Origin: a virus
Length of the DNA: 24,116 bases
Strand: one strand, 5' to 3'
IMG/VR virus record: IMGVR_UViG_3300009158_000197
Span: 1 to 24,116 of that record
Each line of letters starts with the position of its first letter. The first letter of the stretch is position 1. Under the pieces are notes generated by a model. The model worked only from the letters and a program-made list of their open reading frames with translations, ran no database searches and was not told where the DNA came from. Position numbers and translations under genes: made by a program. Of this stretch, positions 12,535 to 24,116 are shown piece by piece.

Positions 12535-13455
12535 ATGGCATCACTCGGACTAGGATATTATGGTAGTTGGTATAATGTTGTTTTAAATCTAACTACTCAG
12601 GCCAATGTCAATCTATATAATTTTATAACATCCAACAGTTCATGGAACAATACTAGTAAAAAATTAAAGGCAATTATAACTATACCAGCAGGATATAGTA
12701 TATATTCAACTAATCCTTCCACTCCTGCATTATTAATACCACCAAATTTATTTAGACCATATGATTTAATATTTTTAATAAACAATGGTTCTATTTTAGG
12801 TGCGGGTGGCACAATAGGAACAGGTGGAGAAGGGGATCAAACACCCACAAATGGTACAAATGGAGGAAACGGAGGAACCGCATTAAAAGTACAAAAACAG
12901 ATATATTTAAATAATAATGGAAATATATATGGTGGAGGCGGTGGAGGCGGTGGAGGCGGTGGTGGACAAGAAACCTTTACTATAACAGGAGGAGTATTAA
13001 AAAGTTGTTGTAGTGCTAGTGGTTGCGATGATTGTCCAGTAAATATTTTAACAGATGCATATGGTGGTACAGAATATTGGTATAATACTAGAAGTTATGA
13101 TTGCAGTCCTTTAAGCAATAATTGTAGTGCAACATGTAATCCACCATGTTGTGACCCTCCCGAATTAAAAAGAGGTGGAATAACATATCAATGTAGAGCA
13201 AAAACATGGACATCGGCTAATGGAGGAAATGGTGGATTGGGACAAGGATATACACAATCTGCGGGATCTGGTTTAGCAGGAACAGGAAATGGTGGTACAG
13301 GAGGAAATGGTGGTACATGGGGAACAACTGCACAAAATGGTAATAATAGTCCAATTAAAAACGGTGGAACCGGAGGAAGTGGTGGAAATTGGGTAGAGGG
13401 TATCGGTAATATAATTTTACAAAGTCAAACTAATGTATTGGGAGGACAAAGTTAA
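12535..13455 (+). CDS. Glycine-rich receptor-binding adhesin, gp38-like architecture (paralogue A)
   Basis: This 306-aa protein is probably a fibre-tip adhesin. The N-terminal about 85 residues (MASLGLGYYGSW...) end in YDLIFLINNGSILGAGG, where glycine-rich motifs begin: GGTIGTGGEGDQ, then NGGNGGTA, then 12 consecutive glycines at residues 133-144. A Cys-rich stretch (about 10 Cys, residues about 150-222) interrupts them. The glycine motifs resume (NGGNGGLGQGY...GGTGGNGGTWG...NGGTGGSGGNW) to about residue 285. Glycine-rich motifs alternating with variable inserts, next to a fibre gene, resemble gp38-type adhesins of T-even relatives such as S16, whose glycine motifs form polyglycine-II helices. 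No sequence alignment supports direct homology. The start lies 4 bases after the fibre stop; a GGAG 18 bases upstream is too far to be convincing. Its stop overlaps the next start by one base (TAATG). Confidence 0.72.
   Translation: MASLGLGYYGSWYNVVLNLTTQANVNLYNFITSNSSWNNTSKKLKAIITIPAGYSIYSTNPSTPALLIPPNLFRPYDLIFLINNGSILGAGGTIGTGGEGDQTPTNGTNGGNGGTALKVQKQIYLNNNGNIYGGGGGGGGGGGGQETFTITGGVLKSCCSASGCDDCPVNILTDAYGGTEYWYNTRSYDCSPLSNNCSATCNPPCCDPPELKRGGITYQCRAKTWTSANGGNGGLGQGYTQSAGSGLAGTGNGGTGGNGGTWGTTAQNGNNSPIKNGGTGGSGGNWVEGIGNIILQSQTNVLGGQS
12931..12966 (+). repeat. Polyglycine tract with 9-bp tandem unit (12 Gly codons)
   Basis: Three perfect copies of the 9-mer GGTGGAGGC are followed by GGTGGTGGA, encoding 12 glycines in paralogue A. 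Unit changes stay in frame, so strand slippage could alter tip length without breaking the gene. Confidence 0.9.
13441..13445 (+). promoter_or_regulatory. Possible Shine-Dalgarno GGAGG for paralogue B
   Basis: GGAGG lies 9 bases before the ATG at 13455 and inside the last codons of the upstream gene (LGGQS). It is the only well-placed strong Shine-Dalgarno-like sequence in the window. Because it encodes Gly-Gly in a glycine-rich protein, it may be coincidental. The one-base TAATG overlap alone could permit translational coupling. Confidence 0.35.
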
Positions 13456-15428
13456 TGGCATCTCTTGGACTAGGATATTATGGAAGTTGGTTAACAGTAG
13501 TTGATACAATAACTACTGACCAACAAAATTTAAATTTATGGACATATATAAGTACTAGAGCAGCTAGTAGATTTAATTGGAATAGAAATGGTGGAAAAAA
13601 ATTAAGAGGTATAATCACAATTAATGCTGGGGTGAATATATATTCCAATAATCCATTAACACCAGCTATAACTATTCCAGCCGATAGTGCAAGTACATTC
13701 AGATCATATGATCAGGTTATAATAATTAACAAGGGTTCAATATTAGGAGCAGCAGGAGTTGGTGCAATAGGAGGAGGTAGTACAGCGGGTTTTGATGGAG
13801 GAAAAGGAGGAACTGCTATATACACTAGAAGAAACCTTATTATAACCAATAATGGAAATATATATGGTGGAGGTGGAGGCGGTGGAGGTGGAGGTGGAGC
13901 ATATAAAACAGAAGTATTAACATCATCTACAAATTGTCCAGGTGCATCCTATTGTGGTAAATGTTGTATACTCAATTGTCAAGGAAGAAATTATTGCTCT
14001 ACTCCAAATGACTGTACAGTTGGAGCAGGGTGTGGTTCTTCTTGTCAATATTATAACAATTCTTCTGATTGTAATGGATCAACTGTTGGTACATGCAATA
14101 CCAAATATAGAGAATGTACAACATATACTGGTGGAAAGGGAGGAAACGGACAAGGTTATGGGTCGGTTCCAACTTCGGGTACAACAGGAATAATATATGG
14201 AGCTTCTATATTTACCGGAAGCGGTGGAGATGGTGGAGCATGGGGGCAAGATGGAGAAGATGGTATAGCAGGTTCAACTACAAGTTTTGGTAATGGTGGA
14301 CAAGGGGGTTGTTGGATAGATGGTTCAGAATTTACAACAATTCAAACCAATAATGATGAGAGAGGCTATCAATGTACTAGTAGCGGATCTGGTACATTAC
14401 CAGTATTATGGTCGGGATGGAGTTCACAACCTTCTATAACAACTACCCCATCGGATGGTTCTGGTGTAACAATTACTACACAATCAACTGATCTTTATAT
14501 AGAACCTAGACAGGCATTAACTAATATAACAGTAAATTCACCAAACAATCTTGGAGGTGCTATAGATTTATCAAATTGTAGATTGTTACAAACAATCACA
14601 TGTAACACACAATCTATAGCATCATTGAATTTGACTAATTGTTCTAGTTTAAAAACGCTTAATTTTAATAGTAATAATTTAAGTACTTTAAATGTGTCTT
14701 CTTGTGTATCATTGGAAACGTTAAATTTAGAAAATAATAATATTCGTGGAAATTTAAGTGGATTATCTAATATTTCTTTAACACAAAATACAACAAGAAC
14801 AATATCAATAAAAAACAACAATATGTCAGCAACAAATTTAAATGACATATTTAATCAACTTCCACAAAAACCACCAAGCATAACACCAGAATGGAGCATT
14901 TATGTAGATAATAATACAGGAACATGTTCATGCAACTGGGTTACTGCAAAAAATAAAGATTGGAGAGTTTATCCAACATTATATAGTTTAACTAAAACTA
15001 TAAATGGATCAACTGTGACTTTTGGATTGGATACATCATTATTAGGCGATGAAAATGTAGCATATACTATAACAGGAGTTACAACAGGTGAAATAAATGG
15101 AGCAAACTTAACCGGAAATTTTGTTTTATACAAAGGATATGGAACACAAGCATTTACTGTCACCACATCAACAGCAGGAACTAAAACCATGACAATTACT
15201 ATCAATGGTGCAACTTGTTCTACTTCTATATCAGTTACTATTGTTACAACAACATCAACAGGTTGTAATGGTATTGTTACATGTACTTGTACTGACAATA
15301 CTCCTACCGATGGTTGTCCACCTGGATTTAATGGCGATCCATGCTTTGGAGGATGTTTTTGTGGTCGAAGTGGTAATACGTATAGTTATTGTGGTTATCA
15401 AACAACCATATCGAGAACATTAACATAA
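13455..15428 (+). CDS. Glycine-rich adhesin with LRR, Calx-beta-like and Cys-rich modules (paralogue B)
   Basis: This 657-aa multi-domain adhesin is paralogous to the preceding gene. It shares MASLGLGYYGSW at the start, a YDQVIIINKGSILGAAG boundary and 11 glycines at residues 138-148. A Cys-rich insert (about 12 Cys, residues 159-222) precedes renewed glycine motifs (GGKGGNGQGYG, GGDGGAWGQ, GNGGQGG) to about residue 285. Residues about 368-430 are three 21-residue leucine-rich repeats of the L-x-L-S/T-N/S-C-x-x-L type (such as ASLNLTNCSSLKTLNFN). A capping region follows with NNTGTCSCNWVTAKNKDWRV. Residues about 510-590 form a Calx-beta-like sandwich (YTITGVTTGEINGANLTGNF). The end is Cys-rich (8 Cys; CPPGFNGDPCFGGCFC), loosely EGF-like. 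The start overlaps the upstream stop by one base. Receptor recognition is the likely role; the ligand is unknown. Confidence 0.75.
   Translation: MASLGLGYYGSWLTVVDTITTDQQNLNLWTYISTRAASRFNWNRNGGKKLRGIITINAGVNIYSNNPLTPAITIPADSASTFRSYDQVIIINKGSILGAAGVGAIGGGSTAGFDGGKGGTAIYTRRNLIITNNGNIYGGGGGGGGGGGAYKTEVLTSSTNCPGASYCGKCCILNCQGRNYCSTPNDCTVGAGCGSSCQYYNNSSDCNGSTVGTCNTKYRECTTYTGGKGGNGQGYGSVPTSGTTGIIYGASIFTGSGGDGGAWGQDGEDGIAGSTTSFGNGGQGGCWIDGSEFTTIQTNNDERGYQCTSSGSGTLPVLWSGWSSQPSITTTPSDGSGVTITTQSTDLYIEPRQALTNITVNSPNNLGGAIDLSNCRLLQTITCNTQSIASLNLTNCSSLKTLNFNSNNLSTLNVSSCVSLETLNLENNNIRGNLSGLSNISLTQNTTRTISIKNNNMSATNLNDIFNQLPQKPPSITPEWSIYVDNNTGTCSCNWVTAKNKDWRVYPTLYSLTKTINGSTVTFGLDTSLLGDENVAYTITGVTTGEINGANLTGNFVLYKGYGTQAFTVTTSTAGTKTMTITINGATCSTSISVTIVTTTSTGCNGIVTCTCTDNTPTDGCPPGFNGDPCFGGCFCGRSGNTYSYCGYQTTISRTLT
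13866..13898 (+). repeat. Polyglycine tract (11 Gly codons)
   Basis: A run of GGT, GGA and one GGC codons encodes 11 glycines in paralogue B, at the position equivalent to the 12-Gly tract of paralogue A. The mixed GGTGGA-rich unit is also slippage-prone while staying in frame. Confidence 0.9.
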
Positions 15429-16866: not shown

Positions 16867-19800
16867 ATGGAACTATCTTCAAAAAAAATATCAGATATAT
16901 ATTGGTATCCTATTAATTTTAATTTAATGGGTAATAAAATCAATATAAAAAAAACATATTTTGTTTTTAATAATGGTTTTAAATCAAATATATATGAATT
17001 TTTAAAAGATCCAAATGATATAAAAATAAATAAAAAAACCGGAATCGTTTTGACTAATTTTTTATCAGGACAAGATATGTTTGAAGACAAAAATTCTCCT
17101 GAGATTTTAACGGATCTTTCTAAGATAGAAACTCCGTTAAAAACAACAGATTCTTTTGTTTTAACACTTTCAACATATCAAAATAAAAACATATTATATA
17201 AATCATATAATAACAGCTTTTCATATTTAGATACCATGAAAATAATATTCGATGATGATACAATTTCAATCGAATCATATAACGGAAATGTTTTAACTTA
17301 CGATAATTCTAATAATTTATTTTTTTCATCTAGAATATCACCGCCTTCAAATACACAAAAATTCAATTATTTTTTGGGTGAAGATAACATAGTATTATTT
17401 TCATATGATAGTAACTATACAAAAGCAGTAACTATAAATTCAAATAGAATATTGTCACTTACTAATGTCTCATATAATTTAAATTCTACTTTAGGAGACT
17501 CTAATATATTAAACTTTATATCATATAAAAGAAATAATTTGTTACCAGATAGCATTAAAAATAGTTATTTTTGTAGATATGAATCTAGTCCATTATTATC
17601 TCAAAAAGATTTAATACCAACCCAAGAAAGTTTAAAAGAAAATTATAAACAAAATTTTCTATCATTTTTTCCATATAAAAATCCAAAATTTAACGATGTC
17701 ACCGAAACGGTAGATTATGATTTACAAATACATGGTTTAAAAAATTATCAAACACCGGAATACAACTATTCCAGAGGTGTTGATTACATTGGCGATTATC
17801 CATCGATTAGAAGAGTATATAATAATATATTCTCTGGAACCAATCAAGAAAATGGATTGGAAAATATATATTTAGGGTTTACTACAAATACATATTTAAA
17901 AAAATTTGAAACCGATAGAAACACAGTTTTTTACTTTCCACCAACAACTCAAAGAATATCGGTACAAGATGCAGGATTGATCGAAGATGGGGCATATTAT
18001 GGAGAATTGCCTTATGTTTCAGATAGAATATATACTAGACAGATATCATACGAGGAACTAACGCCAAATGTTCCACAGCCTCCGTCTATGCCTAGATTAG
18101 ATGGAACATGGTTGTGTACATGGTTATCTGGAAATACAATGGGTCAAAAGAAGTGGATGGACAGATATTTCAATTCCGCTTATTATACAACCGATACAGC
18201 ATTAGGAGCAACTGATTTGTTGTACAACGAAAAGTTAAACCCTGATGTTGATTTTGAAGTTTGGGATCAACCATCATCTTTATTTTTTGAACCCGGTGGG
18301 CAGTATATATACTTCCGTTCTGGACAAGAAAATTCTAAAACATTTTTGACATATTTAAGTTCAGATTTTTACAATCCACTAGGATCTAAAGTATTGGACA
18401 TATCAAATTTTACCAGTTCACCATTAATAGACAACACACCATATAAAAACGATGGTTTCATAGTTGGAAACGACGATTCAAATTTTAAAGGAGAATATTT
18501 AAATTTAAATGGAAAAAATCATATAGTATTTCCTGCTAAAAATGTATTATTGGAAAAAAATCATTTAACACTTTCCTTATGGTTAAGAGTTGAAAATTGG
18601 GGTAATATAAACGGAGATCAAATAATAGGAAATTATTATGATAGTGGATTTGGATTTATAAATGAATCATCCTTAACATCACCTCTTTTTACAGTTGTTG
18701 ATTCCACATCAGGAAATATTTTCAATTTAAATTTTAAACTTTCTCATATAGATAATATATCTATTCCATATAAACCAAATAGTCAAAATAATATAATACA
18801 AAGATTGATAGATTTCGGCTATTGGGTGGTAGATTCATATAATAGAATACTAAGAAAATATAACATAGAAGGAAAAATTGAAAAAACTGTTGATGTAACA
18901 GAATTAAGCGATATAACATATATAGATCAACTAGAAATAGATTCTCAAGAAAATTTATATCTATATTGTGTAAAAGATAAAAAAGTAGTAAAACTTAATT
19001 CCGAAGGAAAATTATTATCAACTAATATACTCACAAAAGAATACAAAAGAATTGAAATAGATTTAGATGATAATCTAAAATACTCTTATGGTAATACTTC
19101 ATGTATCGATAATCAAAATAGTTTATGGGAAGTTATAGGTGGAAATTTATATAAAGATCAACAGATATATGCAAATCTAGGACCAATGCAACAAATAAGC
19201 TGTGATGCTAAAAATAATTTATGGTTGGTTCATCAAAAAGATAAAATAACAAAATTCAATATAACAGAAGACCGATTTGAATTTACAAAAAGCATAGGAA
19301 AAAATGCTTTGATAGATGATGATTGTTTTCAATATAATGGTCAGTTTAGATTTTTAAACTTTATTAAAACACCTAAAATAAGCAAAGTATGTGTGGAAAC
19401 ATCTGATAAAACAGAAGACTTGGCTATTTTGGTAGATGATTCTGATAAAATAGCATACTTAATAAATTCCGAAGGAGCATTAGTTTCTACATTAAGTTTA
19501 TATGGATTATTAACAGTAGATTTAGCAACAGTAATAGAGAATCATAATTTCAAAGCATTAGGTGATTTTAGCAGTTATCAATTTTTAAGAAAATTTGGAT
19601 CATTAGATAAAAATTTAAGTTGGAAATTTAAAATAGCAACTGCAAATGGAAAAGAAGGAAGATTATTAAAATTAACATATGATGTTAAAGATCTGCCACC
19701 GGGCTGGCATAACTTTGTTTTTAATTTTGATTCAACAAATGGTACTGCAAAATATTATATAGATACTATTTTAGTAGCTGATGAAAAATTCGATAAAGCA

Positions 19801-20247
19801 AAATATCAAATACAATACGATTACAAGTCATCCTTATTGGTAGGTGCATCAAATATAAAAAATACTACATTAAATGATTTAATTCAGGTTGAAGATGCGT
19901 ACAAACTACTTGGAGATATTGGTCAAATTTTGATGTACAACAAATCCTTAACACAGGGAGAAATTGCACAAATATATTTTGCATCACCATTATCTATTGA
20001 TAAAGGACCATTAAAATGGAATATCCCAATTGGAGAAAGAAATTACGTAGAAGAAATAAAACATTGGTTTCAAATGCAATTACCAACAAGTAAGAGCAAA
20101 TATTATAATATTAATATCCATAATTTAAAAGCAGACGATAGTGTTAAAAAATTAATAGAAGATTCTATAAGAAGCAATATTAAGAAGATTACTCCTGCGC
20201 ATACCGATTTATATAAAATAAATTGGTTCGATTCAACTAGAGAATAA
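16867..20247 (+). CDS. Large virion protein: LamG-like lectin fold apparently split by a beta-propeller (1126 aa)
   Basis: This is probably a tail-associated carbohydrate-binding or decorative protein. Residues 1-400 are a beta-rich N-terminal region containing a conserved-looking segment NIYLGFTTNTYLKKFETD and then DAGLIEDGAYYGELPY. Residues about 411-490 include GTWLCTWLSGNTMGQKKWMDRYF. A LamG/concanavalin-like fold begins about 516 (PLIDNTPYKNDGFIVGN) with the classic strand HLTLSLWLRVENWG near 565. From about 641 to 881 come NHL-like blades (LEIDSQENLYLYCVKDKKVV, ISCDAKNNLWLVHQKDKI). The lectin signature then returns: LPPGWHNFVFNFD near 944, AKYYIDTILV, and GDIGQILMYNKSLTQGEIAQIY near 1017. 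A C-terminal module (GPLKWNIPIGERNYVEEIKHWFQ, about 1047-1126) may attach it to the virion. It is the last gene of the + strand block; the ATG lies 9 bases after the previous stop. Confidence 0.72.
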   Translation: MELSSKKISDIYWYPINFNLMGNKINIKKTYFVFNNGFKSNIYEFLKDPNDIKINKKTGIVLTNFLSGQDMFEDKNSPEILTDLSKIETPLKTTDSFVLTLSTYQNKNILYKSYNNSFSYLDTMKIIFDDDTISIESYNGNVLTYDNSNNLFFSSRISPPSNTQKFNYFLGEDNIVLFSYDSNYTKAVTINSNRILSLTNVSYNLNSTLGDSNILNFISYKRNNLLPDSIKNSYFCRYESSPLLSQKDLIPTQESLKENYKQNFLSFFPYKNPKFNDVTETVDYDLQIHGLKNYQTPEYNYSRGVDYIGDYPSIRRVYNNIFSGTNQENGLENIYLGFTTNTYLKKFETDRNTVFYFPPTTQRISVQDAGLIEDGAYYGELPYVSDRIYTRQISYEELTPNVPQPPSMPRLDGTWLCTWLSGNTMGQKKWMDRYFNSAYYTTDTALGATDLLYNEKLNPDVDFEVWDQPSSLFFEPGGQYIYFRSGQENSKTFLTYLSSDFYNPLGSKVLDISNFTSSPLIDNTPYKNDGFIVGNDDSNFKGEYLNLNGKNHIVFPAKNVLLEKNHLTLSLWLRVENWGNINGDQIIGNYYDSGFGFINESSLTSPLFTVVDSTSGNIFNLNFKLSHIDNISIPYKPNSQNNIIQRLIDFGYWVVDSYNRILRKYNIEGKIEKTVDVTELSDITYIDQLEIDSQENLYLYCVKDKKVVKLNSEGKLLSTNILTKEYKRIEIDLDDNLKYSYGNTSCIDNQNSLWEVIGGNLYKDQQIYANLGPMQQISCDAKNNLWLVHQKDKITKFNITEDRFEFTKSIGKNALIDDDCFQYNGQFRFLNFIKTPKISKVCVETSDKTEDLAILVDDSDKIAYLINSEGALVSTLSLYGLLTVDLATVIENHNFKALGDFSSYQFLRKFGSLDKNLSWKFKIATANGKEGRLLKLTYDVKDLPPGWHNFVFNFDSTNGTAKYYIDTILVADEKFDKAKYQIQYDYKSSLLVGASNIKNTTLNDLIQVEDAYKLLGDIGQILMYNKSLTQGEIAQIYFASPLSIDKGPLKWNIPIGERNYVEEIKHWFQMQLPTSKSKYYNINIHNLKADDSVKKLIEDSIRSNIKKITPAHTDLYKINWFDSTRE

Positions 20248-20251
20248 ATTT

Positions 20252-20268
20252 TTAAAATTATATTTTAA
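20252..20268. terminator. All-AT inverted repeat at a convergent junction, possible weak bidirectional terminator
   Basis: TTAAAAT and ATTTTAA form a perfect 7-bp stem with a 3-base TAT loop between the convergent genes ending at 20247 and 20258. There is no GC in the stem, so a conventional rho-independent terminator is doubtful, and such repeats arise easily in AT-rich DNA. Only the position favours a function. Confidence 0.2.
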
Positions 20269-20731
20269 CCAAAGATAATAAATAATTTGCTTTATTTAAT
20301 GCGGATAAAATTTCTTCTTTGGTATTATTTAATCCAGATATAACCGAACTGATGTATGAATCAAATTCCGGTGAGTTTAATGATGAACAAATCGATCCAC
20401 ATACACCATAATATGTTTTTAGTATTGAACCATCACAATCCACATACAATTGTATATCGTCAAAATTGATATCATTTGATATATGAGGAAATTGTTTTGA
20501 TTGTTGTTTACAAGTACCAATTATTTCTTCTTGTAGATCATCAAAAGAATCGCTTAATGAACCATACAAGTTTCCTAGAATGTTATGAGCATCGTAATTT
20601 TCAGTATACCAATGACACATTTTAACAATAGATAAAGATTTATTTAAAAATAAACCAAAGGTTCTCGTTGAATCCAAAGAATTTTCTATATTATCTTGAG
20701 AAGAAATTACTGTTATGTTTACATTATTCAT
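20258..20731 (-). CDS. Dps/ferritin-like helical protein of the phage DUF5856 type
   Basis: This 157-aa protein is mostly helical, unlike its beta-rich neighbours. Its core reads KMCHWYTENYDAHNILGNLY followed by GSLSDSFDDLQEEIIGT. That gives His40-Trp41, His49, Asp64 and Glu68. The His49-Asp64-Glu68 spacing (15, then 4) matches the ferroxidase ligands of Dps, and the HW...H spacing of 9 is as I recall for phage DUF5856 proteins. It may therefore bind iron or form a four-helix bundle; DUF5856 proteins are found in T4-like phages with unknown function. The C-terminal part contains four Cys (about 74, 99, 111, 115), not typical of Dps. The gene is divergent from 20808 (76 bases apart) and convergent with the LamG gene (10 bases apart). 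The helical-bundle assignment is fairly good; iron oxidation is inference. Confidence 0.6.
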   Translation of the reverse strand: MNNVNITVISSQDNIENSLDSTRTFGLFLNKSLSIVKMCHWYTENYDAHNILGNLYGSLSDSFDDLQEEIIGTCKQQSKQFPHISNDINFDDIQLYVDCDGSILKTYYGVCGSICSSLNSPEFDSYISSVISGLNNTKEEILSALNKANYLLSLVKI

Positions 20732-20807: not shown

Positions 20808-21224
20808 ATGAATATTGATCCAAATTACCAATACTTATCTAAAATATTTTTAGAACTTTTAAGCTTAAATCAAAACTTTAAAGCATCTTTTCAGTCTTTG
20901 GCTCCGGAAATCTATGCCGATATCGAATCAGCATCAACCAATCCCAACTGCTCATGTAGAGGTAAAGTAGAAAATTATGTAAACTCTAATAGAGAAAAGT
21001 GTGCAAAATTTTTAAATGAATCTTCTACGGAAATTAAATCTTTAATTAATTTGCATGATATCGAAAACAAATACGGATTCGTAATCTACGGTGGAAAAGT
21101 AGAAAGAGTAAAGGTTACTGAATGGAACAATTTTTCTCAAAAATTAAATAATGATAGAGCAGCATATAGACAATTTTCTCTTTTAAGAGTAGATGATGAA
21201 TATGTTGATGTTTTCTTTTTATGA
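20808..21224 (+). CDS. Conserved-looking small phage protein, function unknown (138 aa)
   Basis: I do not recognise a named family. The N-terminal half is helical (YLSKIFLELLSLNQNFKASF), followed by a short Cys-containing segment NPNCSCRGKVENYVNSN (Cys48 and Cys50) and a second helix with another Cys. The C-terminal half is beta-like (GFVIYGGKVERVKVTEW) and ends in a charged strand DDEYVDVFFL. No membrane segment or signal peptide is seen. It opens a two-gene + strand cassette inserted between minus-strand genes; its stop overlaps the next start (ATGA, 4 bases), implying translational coupling with the membrane protein. Composition and codon use look like the rest of the window. A single CxC is too little to argue for metal binding. 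Confidence 0.6.
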   Translation: MNIDPNYQYLSKIFLELLSLNQNFKASFQSLAPEIYADIESASTNPNCSCRGKVENYVNSNREKCAKFLNESSTEIKSLINLHDIENKYGFVIYGGKVERVKVTEWNNFSQKLNNDRAAYRQFSLLRVDDEYVDVFFL

Positions 21225-21508
21225 TATTTTTTGAATTTTTAACATACATAATACTAAGTTTGAGTGTTAGTTTTATGTGGAGTTTTTCAGAAATATTTGC
21301 TCCCGTTAGAAATTTGGTTGCAAGGATTCCATATATAAGAAAACCTTTGATATGTCCAGAATGTAGTAGTTTTTGGATGGGTGTATTAACCAGTTTATTT
21401 TATAATCCACTTTTTGATACATTAGGATATTATTCATATCCCTTTTGTGGATTATCGGTTCACCTGTTCGCTTGTTTTTTATACAAGATTTATTTTAAAA
21501 TTAACTAA
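21221..21508 (+). CDS. Small membrane protein, DUF1360-like
   Basis: This 95-aa protein has a hydrophobic N-terminal helix (residues about 4-24), the motif FAPVRNLVARIPYIRKPLICPECSSFWMGV (about 27-56), and one or two further hydrophobic segments (about 53-66 and 74-92). The combination 'E-x-F-A-P-V-R ... CPxCxxFWxG' is typical of DUF1360-family membrane proteins found in phages and bacteria, whose function is not established. Two Cys (CPEC) could bind metal or form a disulfide. The start overlaps the upstream stop as ATGA, so expression is probably coupled to the 138-aa gene. It converges with the 538-aa gene, leaving only 7 bases between stops. Family call is moderate to good; role unknown. 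Confidence 0.68.
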   Translation: MIFFEFLTYIILSLSVSFMWSFSEIFAPVRNLVARIPYIRKPLICPECSSFWMGVLTSLFYNPLFDTLGYYSYPFCGLSVHLFACFLYKIYFKIN

Positions 21509-21515
21509 AAATTTA

Positions 21516-23132
21516 TCAACAAATATCTGCGCAACTAAAAGTAGCATAGTCTGGTGGGGGGCGATCCAAATACACATTCACATTTGAACCCATGTATAAT
21601 GCACCACCGCTCAAAGTCCCTGTTGCGTAAAGACCACCACTACCCTCCTGTACATGTATATCAAAATTATCTGGCTGTGTAAGATGAGCGGGGTATTTTA
21701 TCCACAGTGTAGCACCATTTGATATGAAGATGTTGCCGTTTACTGTTACGCTTTCACAAATTGCAACTTTACCCGTTATAACCCAATTACCACTAGTACG
21801 GATGCAACCAGTTTTTGAAGTATCATTTATAAATATAAGAATATTAATAGCCTTATTAGGAATTTCAAGAGTTAATATCTCCGTATTTTCAGTAAAAGCG
21901 TCACCTTTAATATTAAAGGTGACAGATGCTGTATTATTGTTAATATAAAAGTTACCTGTTAAACTTGCACCATTTATATCATCAGAAGAAACACCTATAA
22001 TATTATAAGGCACGTTCGTATAATTAGCTACATTTGTAGTATTTAATGTAATCGTCACAGATTGATTTTCATTAACCACATAATATTTTAAATTATTAAT
22101 AGTTTGAACTGATGCATTTGTACTTAATGAATAAGTAGGATTATTATCTAATATGTTAACTGACACAGAAGCTTTTCCATTATCAAGAGAAAGAGTTAAT
22201 ATTTCTGTATATTCATTAAGAGTGTCACTTTTAATATTAAAAGTGACAGATGCTGTATTATTGTTAATATAAAAGTTACCCTTTAAACTTGCACCATTTA
22301 TATCGTCAGAAGAAACACCAGTAACAGTATAAGGCACGTTAATAAAATTAGGTATATTTATAGTATTTAATGTAATTGTCACTGACCCTCCTTCGGTTAC
22401 AGAAGGAGTAGATTTCATTAATGAATAATCAGATGGAAGTCTATTATAAATATGCATTGCAGGTGATTGAGAAAAATAATTATTAAATCTATCATAATAT
22501 TCTATATAAAAATATATATCCTCACTAGTATATTTTTCTAATGCTGCGAGAGTAATTTGTGCTGTATTATTAATAATAGTAAATTCTCCTGTTTCCTGTG
22601 TTATCGATCCAACATTTTTAATATCACCATATTTCACAGCCCATTTACACAAATACCCATCAGGTATAGCAGACCTGACACCATTAGAATCATTATTAGA
22701 TGTTATATAAACATTTAAACTATCTCCTGTATACATAGAAACATCACTATATTCAAAATTAATGCATGTACTTCTATCATATATTAAAGAAAGACTTTCA
22801 CCAGCACAAGTAACTGTAAATATCGCGTCACTAAAGTTGCTTTGTCTACATCGTTCACTCCTTAATAAGATTAATGATATAGATGCGGTATTGTTTATAA
22901 CTGTAAATTGTCCATTAAGAGAAGATGAAAATGAACCAAATTTAACACCGGAAATATATAATCCCGTAATACTATATGGAAATACTGTACCATCGGATTG
23001 ATTCGTTGTTGTTAAAGTAAATGTGATAGTTTCACCAGGAAAAACACGATTTTTTGAACTAGTTAAAATAATAGATCTAGGAGTTGATCCAGAGATTTGT
23101 GTTTTTAATTGTTTTCTTACATTAAATGACAT
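21516..23132 (-). CDS. Calx-beta-like repeat adhesin with distinct C-terminal tip (538 aa)
   Basis: This is probably a fibre or receptor-binding protein. After a short N-terminus (NVRKQLKTQISGSTPRS) come four beta-sandwich repeats of roughly 105 residues. Repeats 3 and 4 are near-identical around VTEGGSVTITLNT...VPYTVTGVSSDDINGASLKGNF...NNTASVTFNIKSD; repeats 1 and 2 are diverged but keep the 'GEF/GQFT-x-INNTA-x-I-x-L' core. This resembles Calx-beta domains. The final about 95 residues (from about 443, SKTGCIRTSGNWVITG) differ. They look beta-solenoid-like (VTVNGNIFISNGATLWIKYP, GGLYATGTLSGGALYMGSNV) and are encoded by clearly more GC-rich DNA. The gene follows the tail-fibre assembly chaperone gene by 7 bases on the same strand, supporting a fibre role. 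There is no Shine-Dalgarno at the start. The exact receptor is unknown. Confidence 0.68.
   Translation of the reverse strand: MSFNVRKQLKTQISGSTPRSIILTSSKNRVFPGETITFTLTTTNQSDGTVFPYSITGLYISGVKFGSFSSSLNGQFTVINNTASISLILLRSERCRQSNFSDAIFTVTCAGESLSLIYDRSTCINFEYSDVSMYTGDSLNVYITSNNDSNGVRSAIPDGYLCKWAVKYGDIKNVGSITQETGEFTIINNTAQITLAALEKYTSEDIYFYIEYYDRFNNYFSQSPAMHIYNRLPSDYSLMKSTPSVTEGGSVTITLNTINIPNFINVPYTVTGVSSDDINGASLKGNFYINNNTASVTFNIKSDTLNEYTEILTLSLDNGKASVSVNILDNNPTYSLSTNASVQTINNLKYYVVNENQSVTITLNTTNVANYTNVPYNIIGVSSDDINGASLTGNFYINNNTASVTFNIKGDAFTENTEILTLEIPNKAINILIFINDTSKTGCIRTSGNWVITGKVAICESVTVNGNIFISNGATLWIKYPAHLTQPDNFDIHVQEGSGGLYATGTLSGGALYMGSNVNVYLDRPPPDYATFSCADIC
21900..21923. repeat. 24-bp perfect palindrome in the adhesin gene
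   Basis: The sequence equals its own reverse complement across 24 bases, centred on AATATT. It codes for VTFNIKGD in repeat 4. There is no loop, so it is a dyad rather than a classic hairpin. Confidence 0.85.
21901..22016 (-). repeat. Direct repeat copy 2 within the adhesin (116 bp)
   Basis: This copy pairs with 22225-22340 at an offset of exactly 324 bases (108 codons). By eye there are 9 mismatches in 116 positions, about 92% identity. Such similarity at synonymous sites points to a recent duplication or gene conversion between repeats 3 and 4 of the adhesin. Confidence 0.85.
22223..22248. repeat. 26-bp perfect palindrome in the adhesin gene
   Basis: Homologous to the palindrome at 21900-21923 but different at two positions that pair with each other, so perfect symmetry is kept. 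It codes for VTFNIKSD in repeat 3. Confidence 0.85.
22225..22340 (-). repeat. Direct repeat copy 1 within the adhesin (116 bp)
   Basis: Partner of 21901-22016, encoding the equivalent part of adhesin repeat 3. Homologous recombination between the copies would remove or add exactly one 108-residue domain in frame. Confidence 0.85.
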
Positions 23133-23139
23133 ATTATGA

Positions 23140-23598
23140 TTATAATAATGGAAACGTTACGATAAAAGGATCTTCTACAATACTAGGTAAATCTCGTAAT
23201 TCTTGTCTATATGTTTTAATTTTTTGTTTTTTTTCTTCGGTATAGGTTTCCCATTTATCTATTAAAACAAGTATATCAGATTCTTTTAATAAATTGTTTC
23301 TATTTTCTCTAATAATTTGCCATTGTACATTAATTTGTTTTTGTATTTCTAATTGAATTTCTTCTTCTGTTTTATCTCTGGTTATAATAGTTTGAACCAC
23401 TTTATCATCAAAAATTTCTAAACAAGAATTACAAAAAATTTCTTTATTTTCTGATATCGTTTCTACTGGAATCCAATTGTATTTTTTTAATATATTATCA
23501 TTCAACGTATTAAAATTAGATATGTTATTCCAATTTGTAGGCAATGTTCTAGGGTGAATTTTAATTTCTCCATTTTCTATTAAACAATATTTTTTCAT
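23140..23598 (-). CDS. Phage tail-fibre assembly chaperone (Phage_tail_APC-like)
   Basis: This 152-aa protein probably assists folding, trimerisation or attachment of the adjacent fibre. The C-terminal half has the family signature: a helix WQIIRENRNNLLKESDILVL, then DKWETYTEEKKQKIKTYRQELRDLP. This matches the 'W..lR..RN.lL..sD........t.e....w..YRqaLRdLP' pattern of tail-fibre assembly proteins (Phage_tail_APC / gp38-assembly-like). A charged coiled-coil segment (TEEEIQLEIQKQINVQW, about 90-107) precedes it, and the N-terminus (MKKYCLIENGEIKIHPRTLP) resembles the usual 'ENGxVxxxPRxLP' opening. The gene lies 4 bases downstream of the fibre stop and 7 bases upstream of the 538-aa adhesin, so it could serve either or both. 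The start ATG has no Shine-Dalgarno. Confidence 0.82.
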   Translation of the reverse strand: MKKYCLIENGEIKIHPRTLPTNWNNISNFNTLNDNILKKYNWIPVETISENKEIFCNSCLEIFDDKVVQTIITRDKTEEEIQLEIQKQINVQWQIIRENRNNLLKESDILVLIDKWETYTEEKKQKIKTYRQELRDLPSIVEDPFIVTFPLL

Positions 23599-23602
23599 AA
23601 TT

Positions 23603-24116
23603 TTATTGATTTGTATTTACAATATGTGCATACCATTCGGTTCCACCTGTTCTAGTTGAAAATACAAATGTATCCACTTTATTTGCATTAGTTGTTAGGG
23701 TGGGAAGAGTTCCTCCTGACCATCTTGTTCCGGTTGGCCAAGTAATAGCCCTAGCCGTTCCGTCACAGCATAATTGAAGTGTAAATGAATACATATAACT
23801 ATTCAATCCTGCTGTATTTGAAAATGTCCAAGATTCTATAGGTCTGTTTAGATAAACCAAGAACGTATTTGCGGCTTTTGTATCTATAGTTAAAGCATTT
23901 GATGCATTTATAACCGGAGTAGTTGTGCTTTCAGCAACAGATTTAAAAATTATTCTGTTTGATGTTGAATCATCATTTATTTTACTTAAAAAATTTCCAA
24001 AATTATTAGAAATATTGTTTATAGTAATAGCAGAAGCCTGAAGATTGGTAGTTAATGTGGTTACATTATTATTTGTAGCATTTATACTATTACTTAAATT
24101 GTTTATGGAAATAGCA
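23603..24116 (-). CDS. Tail fibre protein, C-terminal part (5' partial)
   Basis: The minus-strand frame is open from the stop at 23603 to the right edge, so about 171 residues are visible and the start lies outside. A TTG at 23860 looks like a start but is internal. The edge-proximal part (24116 to about 23985) is Asn/Ser/Ile-rich with spaced hydrophobic residues (SINNLSNSINATNNNVTTLT), compatible with a trimeric coiled coil or beta-stalk. After a DSTSNRIIFKSV linker, the C-terminal about 90 residues form a fibre-tip-like domain: FLVYLNRPIESWTFSN, LCCDGTARAITWPTGTRWSGGTLPTL, and NKVDTFVFSTRTGGTEWYAHI. The ITWP...W.GG..PTLT...N.VD.F.F.T..GG..WY pattern is common at the end of phage tail fibres. 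The chaperone gene immediately downstream supports the call. Confidence 0.78.
   Translation of the reverse strand, partial: AISINNLSNSINATNNNVTTLTTNLQASAITINNISNNFGNFLSKINDDSTSNRIIFKSVAESTTTPVINASNALTIDTKAANTFLVYLNRPIESWTFSNTAGLNSYMYSFTLQLCCDGTARAITWPTGTRWSGGTLPTLTTNANKVDTFVFSTRTGGTEWYAHIVNTNQ

Follow-up and report, generated by a model that had tools for sequence, protein, structure and literature searches.

The locus raises the question of whether the GC-rich 3' end of an otherwise AT-rich tail adhesin gene entered that gene from another genome. The gene lies at positions 21516-23132 of the window, the 24,116-base stretch analysed here, which is the entire virus record IMGVR_UViG_3300009158_000197 and is probably a piece of a T4-like virus genome. 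With moderate confidence, we propose that the GC-rich stretch encodes the tip of a phage tail adhesin, that this tip is exchangeable and presumably binds a receptor, and that its codon composition suggests a later entry than that of the stalk on which it sits.

The adhesin gene and its surroundings

The adhesin is encoded in a tail and baseplate region, together with genes for a baseplate wedge, the end of a tail fibre and a fibre assembly chaperone. The baseplate wedge gene opens the window (PHROG 219), and its matches in phage records are mostly to cyanophages, all below 60% identity and at 25-28% among the matches listed. A small gene at 20258-20731, presumably Dps-like, weakly resembles PHROG 858 (starvation-inducible regulator) and DUF5856. 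The adhesin itself consists of a short N-terminus, Ig-like domains, a linker and the tip. The features that the argument uses are as follows.

13455-15428, plus strand: second gene with an exchanged C-terminus, the relatives L034, L042 and L032 having a different end after an Ig-like repeat; it carries a second copy type of the repeat at 14973-15251
21221-21508, plus strand: conserved small gene, convergent with the adhesin gene, its 3' end forming the border of the variable site; relatives in 32 loci
21516-23132, minus strand: adhesin-like tail-region gene, an open frame of 538 amino acids; repeats match PHROG 1922
21519-21806, minus strand: GC-rich C-terminal tip, amino acids 443-538 (last 96 codons), with codon-corrected excess of GC and GC3
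21810-21830, minus strand: linker INDTSKT, which closes the last Ig-like repeat; module junction
21810-22097, minus strand: second near-duplicate Ig-like repeat, about amino acids 346-441, from DNA alignment of both repeats and matches in L031 and L039
22143-22436, minus strand: first near-duplicate Ig-like repeat, about amino acids 233-330, from DNA alignment
22443-23078, minus strand: N-terminal part with Ig-like domains, about amino acids 19-230; amino acids 16-283 match L023 repeats locally
23140-23598, minus strand: tail fibre assembly chaperone, upstream of the adhesin (PF16778, 42.5 bits, cut-off 26.6; PHROG 4912)
23603-24115, minus strand: last part of a tail fibre gene that the window truncates (PHROG 9017, E 1.8e-14)

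The stalk repeats match PHROG 1922 (baseplate hub and tail lysozyme; E 2e-13) and also hub proteins of cyanophages. Their resemblance to the cyanophage proteins of PHROG 1922 is confined to the Ig-like repeats; the hub and lysozyme part is unmatched. The initial annotation had described the repeats as Calx-beta-like. For Calx-beta (PF03160) the window adhesin has no Pfam match, and the repeat of one relative matches with 19.6 bits (E 0.00094), under the curated cut-off of 27, so that the name is only weakly supported. The first domain of the N-terminal part, scanned alone, matches DUF11 with 25.2 bits against a cut-off of 24.6.

Base composition of the tip

The initial annotation had pointed to 103 G+C among the 240 bases at 21541-21780 (43%) and 12 among the 60 bases at 22441-22500 of the same gene; our recount gave exactly these figures. 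The latter segment is an extreme low spot, the GC of the entire stalk being 0.28 and the mean of the window 0.285. Segments of 240 bases that reach 103 G+C or more occur in four clusters in the window, with starts at 12787-12803, 13094-13209, 14017-14233 and 21516-21554; the first three belong to glycine-rich genes at 12535-15428 and have ordinary GC3 (0.13).

The excess in the tip could in principle be a matter of amino-acid content only. Indeed, glycine, alanine and proline lift the GC expected for the tip to 0.355, well above the window mean, but the observed value is 0.424 (z 6.2), which was reached by none of 5000 synonymous recodings that kept the amino acids and drew on the codon usage of the window. 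GC3 is likewise raised, at 0.312 against 0.146 expected (z 5.25; same recoding scheme, with codon frequencies taken from the window outside the tip). About half of the GC excess follows from amino-acid content, and the remainder is synonymous; the recoding simulation thus rules out amino-acid content as the sole cause, which we regard as highly improbable. The stalk (amino acids 1-442) is ordinary by the same measures, with GC of 0.280 against 0.278 expected and GC3 of 0.127 against 0.133.

When GC and codon usage were compared between windows along the coding sequence, much as the initial annotation had proposed, the most extreme of the 143 windows, each of 96 codons, was one that overlaps the tip. 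The z-values across these 143 windows have a standard deviation of 1.39, so the significance of the tip is lower than its z suggests, although still clear. A change-point search within the adhesin gene peaked at codon 460, with codon 442 nearly equal and the best points falling at codons 442 to 464, and none of 2000 permutations reached the maximum. The module junction, as placed by sequence, is at codons 441-442, and the earlier claim that the GC shift coincides with a switch of domain stands, apart from the name given to the repeats. Within the tip, two-fold codons are raised (C-ending 11 of 30 against 13%, G-ending 5 of 9 against 11%), and four-fold sites are barely richer in GC (9 of 45 against 13%).

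A codon composition unlike the rest of the window beyond amino-acid content is what foreign DNA should have, and the tip has it; as a sign of import it is weakened by conserved genes, which hold GC3-rich stretches of their own. We therefore considered a second explanation, that the tip is native to the phage lineage, that its GC3 reflects codon selection, for expression or for the folding of a compact tip, and that it passes between related phages only as part of the whole gene. Stretches whose GC3 z lies between 3 and 5.6 do occur in conserved genes of this group. In the conserved gene at 16867-20247, for example, codons 385-480 have a z of 3.6 in the window, values from 3.3 to 5.6 in each of five close relatives (L031, L032, L033, L040 and L042) and about 0 in four distant ones (L075, L043, L037 and L036). 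Among 2820 coding windows of relatives, which still include some spurious frames after 49 of 2869 with GC3 of at least 0.36 were left out as likely spurious, 1.8% reach the GC z of the tip and 2.0% reach its value for GC3. Among the genuine ones, the highest values include those of the presumed capsid gene, which we take to be the major capsid gene, with z above 7. GC3 alone is therefore no proof of import. The resemblance to the presumed capsid gene does not extend to codon choice, however: among four-fold codons that gene raises C-ending ones (0.25-0.27) and avoids G-ending ones (0.01-0.02), whereas the tip, with small counts, has 0.09 and 0.11. Moreover, the rest of the adhesin gene is translated at an equal level and is compositionally ordinary. 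On balance, we consider a native tip a possible but less likely explanation.

The alternative C-terminal ends of relatives are not compositionally odd, with GC z up to 1.5 among the five scored. From the 32 loci with a relative of the small gene at 21221-21508, nine ends were scored for codons (L055, L056, L057, L058, L062, L072, L074, L075 and L080), after exclusion of loci with a conserved gene of 294-297 amino acids at this position, duplicates, more distant frames and short spurious frames. Separately, we observed that the first 96 codons of the gene at 20808-21095 have GC3 of 0.26 (z 4.1), and that its copies in the three closest relatives have z of -0.4 to 0.6.

Turnover of the site and a recurrent joint

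Three contigs (L039, L040 and L041) align with the window from about 20250 at 89-92% DNA identity, and in each of them the alignment stops at 21513, three bases before the adhesin stop codon; a fourth contig, L042, was excluded from this comparison because it ends. The adhesin site of L039 (3974-9217) encodes a 1747-residue protein that combines a von Willebrand type A domain with a legume lectin domain at its C-terminus (62.6 bits, cut-off 26.3, for the lectin), the sites of L040 and L041 encode proteins with proline-threonine repeats and other tips, and in more distant loci among the 32 the site is occupied by other genes. The long body of the L039 protein is common to L041, L043 and L075 up to about residue 1516, after which L041 differs and L075 ends. 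Of 20 baseplate relatives, 4 matched the adhesin as a whole, almost entirely through its repeats, and none matched the tip; nor was the tip matched in any of the 32 loci, many of which are short or have no adhesin there (best E 2.1). Scans with the chaperone gave only partial matches and scans with the cut tail fibre at 23603-24115 none, so that the mapping covers the near side of the variable site. We also noted a 406-residue gene beside the relative of 20258-20731 (L041:3730-4950 and L040:2915-4135) that is missing in the window, the L041 copy of which matches a GlcNAc glycosyltransferase family (PF11397, 241 bits).

Close relatives thus differ over the whole of the adhesin gene, and for the window adhesin we observe turnover at the level of the gene end only. 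Exchange of a C-terminal domain alone, behind a conserved stem and between conserved flanks, is seen for the relatives' long protein and for the gene at 13455-15428. In the adhesin, the last repeat ends with the linker INDTSKT, to which an unrelated tip is directly joined; in L031 and L039, linkers nearly identical to it connect one repeat with the next. Relatives of 13455-15428 in L034 (as L024), L042 and L032 (as L025) have INDTSKPP or INDTQKPP followed by a C-terminus unlike those of the window, L033, L040 and L031. Another repeat in L031 leads into a glycine-rich end. Different ends sit behind one recurrent joint, consisting of an Ig-like repeat and an INDTS linker. Turnover of the adhesin site, taken with the changed C-terminus of the second gene after the same kind of repeat, leads us to the reading of an exchangeable, presumably binding tip at a variable site. 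As further observations on these genes, the sequence on either side of the exchanged C-terminus of 13455-15428 is about 83-91% identical in DNA, and in L031 (15777-20000) the relative of 16867-20247 extends into Ig-like repeats with INDTS linkers where the window gene stops.

The stalk also contains the two longest perfect palindromes of the window, at 22223-22248 (26 bp) and 21900-21923 (24 bp). They occupy equivalent places in the near-duplicate Ig-like repeats. Between them, a mirror-image pair of changes leaves both perfect, and they are the only palindromes with arms of at least 12 and at least 3 G-C pairs in 963,684 bases (loci, some of which overlap, plus the window). One could imagine a dedicated exchange site for C-terminal modules, cruciform or protein-bound, which would make the adhesin a cassette programmed for tip swapping and not the outcome of chance recombination; we consider this very unlikely. 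The pattern is found in none of the other loci examined, and the palindromes encode ordinary repeat residues.

Origin and role of the tip

The initial annotation had suggested searching for the tip on unrelated phages or bacteria, and this search returned no homologue. No homologue or donor was found in phages, by protein or by DNA, or in plasmids, nor in viral contigs and bacterial and archaeal genomes, where the contig scans need exact 8-residue matches and may miss distant relatives. The tip likewise has no match in Pfam, PHROGs, PDB sequences or NCBIfam. A weak match to Synechococcus phage S-CAM9 in the phage collection (E 9) was judged to be chance. A structure model made without an alignment was poor (mean pLDDT 43), a second model, restricted to the tip, brought no improvement, and Foldseek with the poor model gave no match at E up to 0.001; the short strands predicted suggest that the tip may be beta-rich. 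None of the literature titles listed concerned this phage group, and those found for Calx-beta in phage tails were unrelated.

A C-terminal position in an adhesin would also fit the variable region of a diversity-generating retroelement, the reverse transcriptase of which could lie in the genome beyond the window; alternatively, the tip could be overlapped by a second gene or an RNA. Neither the window nor the loci examined contain a further copy of the tip that could serve as a template, the other frames contain many stops when read by eye, and the window has no Rfam match and no tRNA. These explanations are without support, and we give them next to no credence.

The initial annotation had taken the tip to be a recent acquisition from another genome. 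About half of the GC excess lies beyond amino-acid content, the tip is absent from all relatives checked, and the content of the site varies; on the other side, the searches yielded no donor, and conserved genes also contain stretches rich in GC3. The same tip on all close relatives, with a GC content due to amino acids, would have spoken for the opposite, and we found the tip in none of the relatives checked, with amino acids accounting for about half of the excess. A foreign tip from a less AT-rich source is therefore favoured, but not proven.

We infer receptor binding by the tip, its foreign origin and a role for recombination from these comparisons, and propose the following mechanism. 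The Ig-like repeats would form a stalk that ends with INDTSKT, followed by an unrelated, probably beta-rich tip that would serve as a ligand for a host surface structure; this binding role is presumed by analogy with the legume lectin at the same spot in L039. Recombination between phages at the end of the stalk would change the ligand, and the tip may be a later arrival than the stalk, its source being a genome richer in G+C. Since the content of the site changes between close relatives, these phages could acquire a new surface ligand and leave the remainder of the region unchanged. If the tip is indeed foreign, then the surface ligand changed recently.

Among known systems, gp38 of T4-type phages is a small distal protein that decides host binding. 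The role of the window adhesin can be likened to that of this tail fibre tip adhesin (PF05268) by analogy, although the window adhesin has no GP38 match; GP38-like genes do occur elsewhere in the window, at 12535-13455 and 13455-15428, both under the Pfam cut-off. C-terminal exchange of phage receptor-binding proteins is already well documented, and the present locus is one more case, with a tip that has no family match. In Smug et al. (2023; PMC10684548), receptor-binding protein mosaicism in tail fibres and neck passage structures takes the form of a shared N-terminal part with non-homologous C-terminal binding domains. In the window, by comparison, the shared part is an Ig-like stalk, the virus group is uncultivated, and the tip matches no family searched. 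Distant Alteromonas phages share host recognition modules comprising fibre and chaperone, according to PMC10579305. Unlike for those modules, we found none that the window shares with a distant phage; like them, a fibre gene and a chaperone adjoin the window adhesin, in a region that varies between relatives. The locus thus adds an uncultivated T4-like virus group to the cases of tail adhesins that exchange their distal domains.
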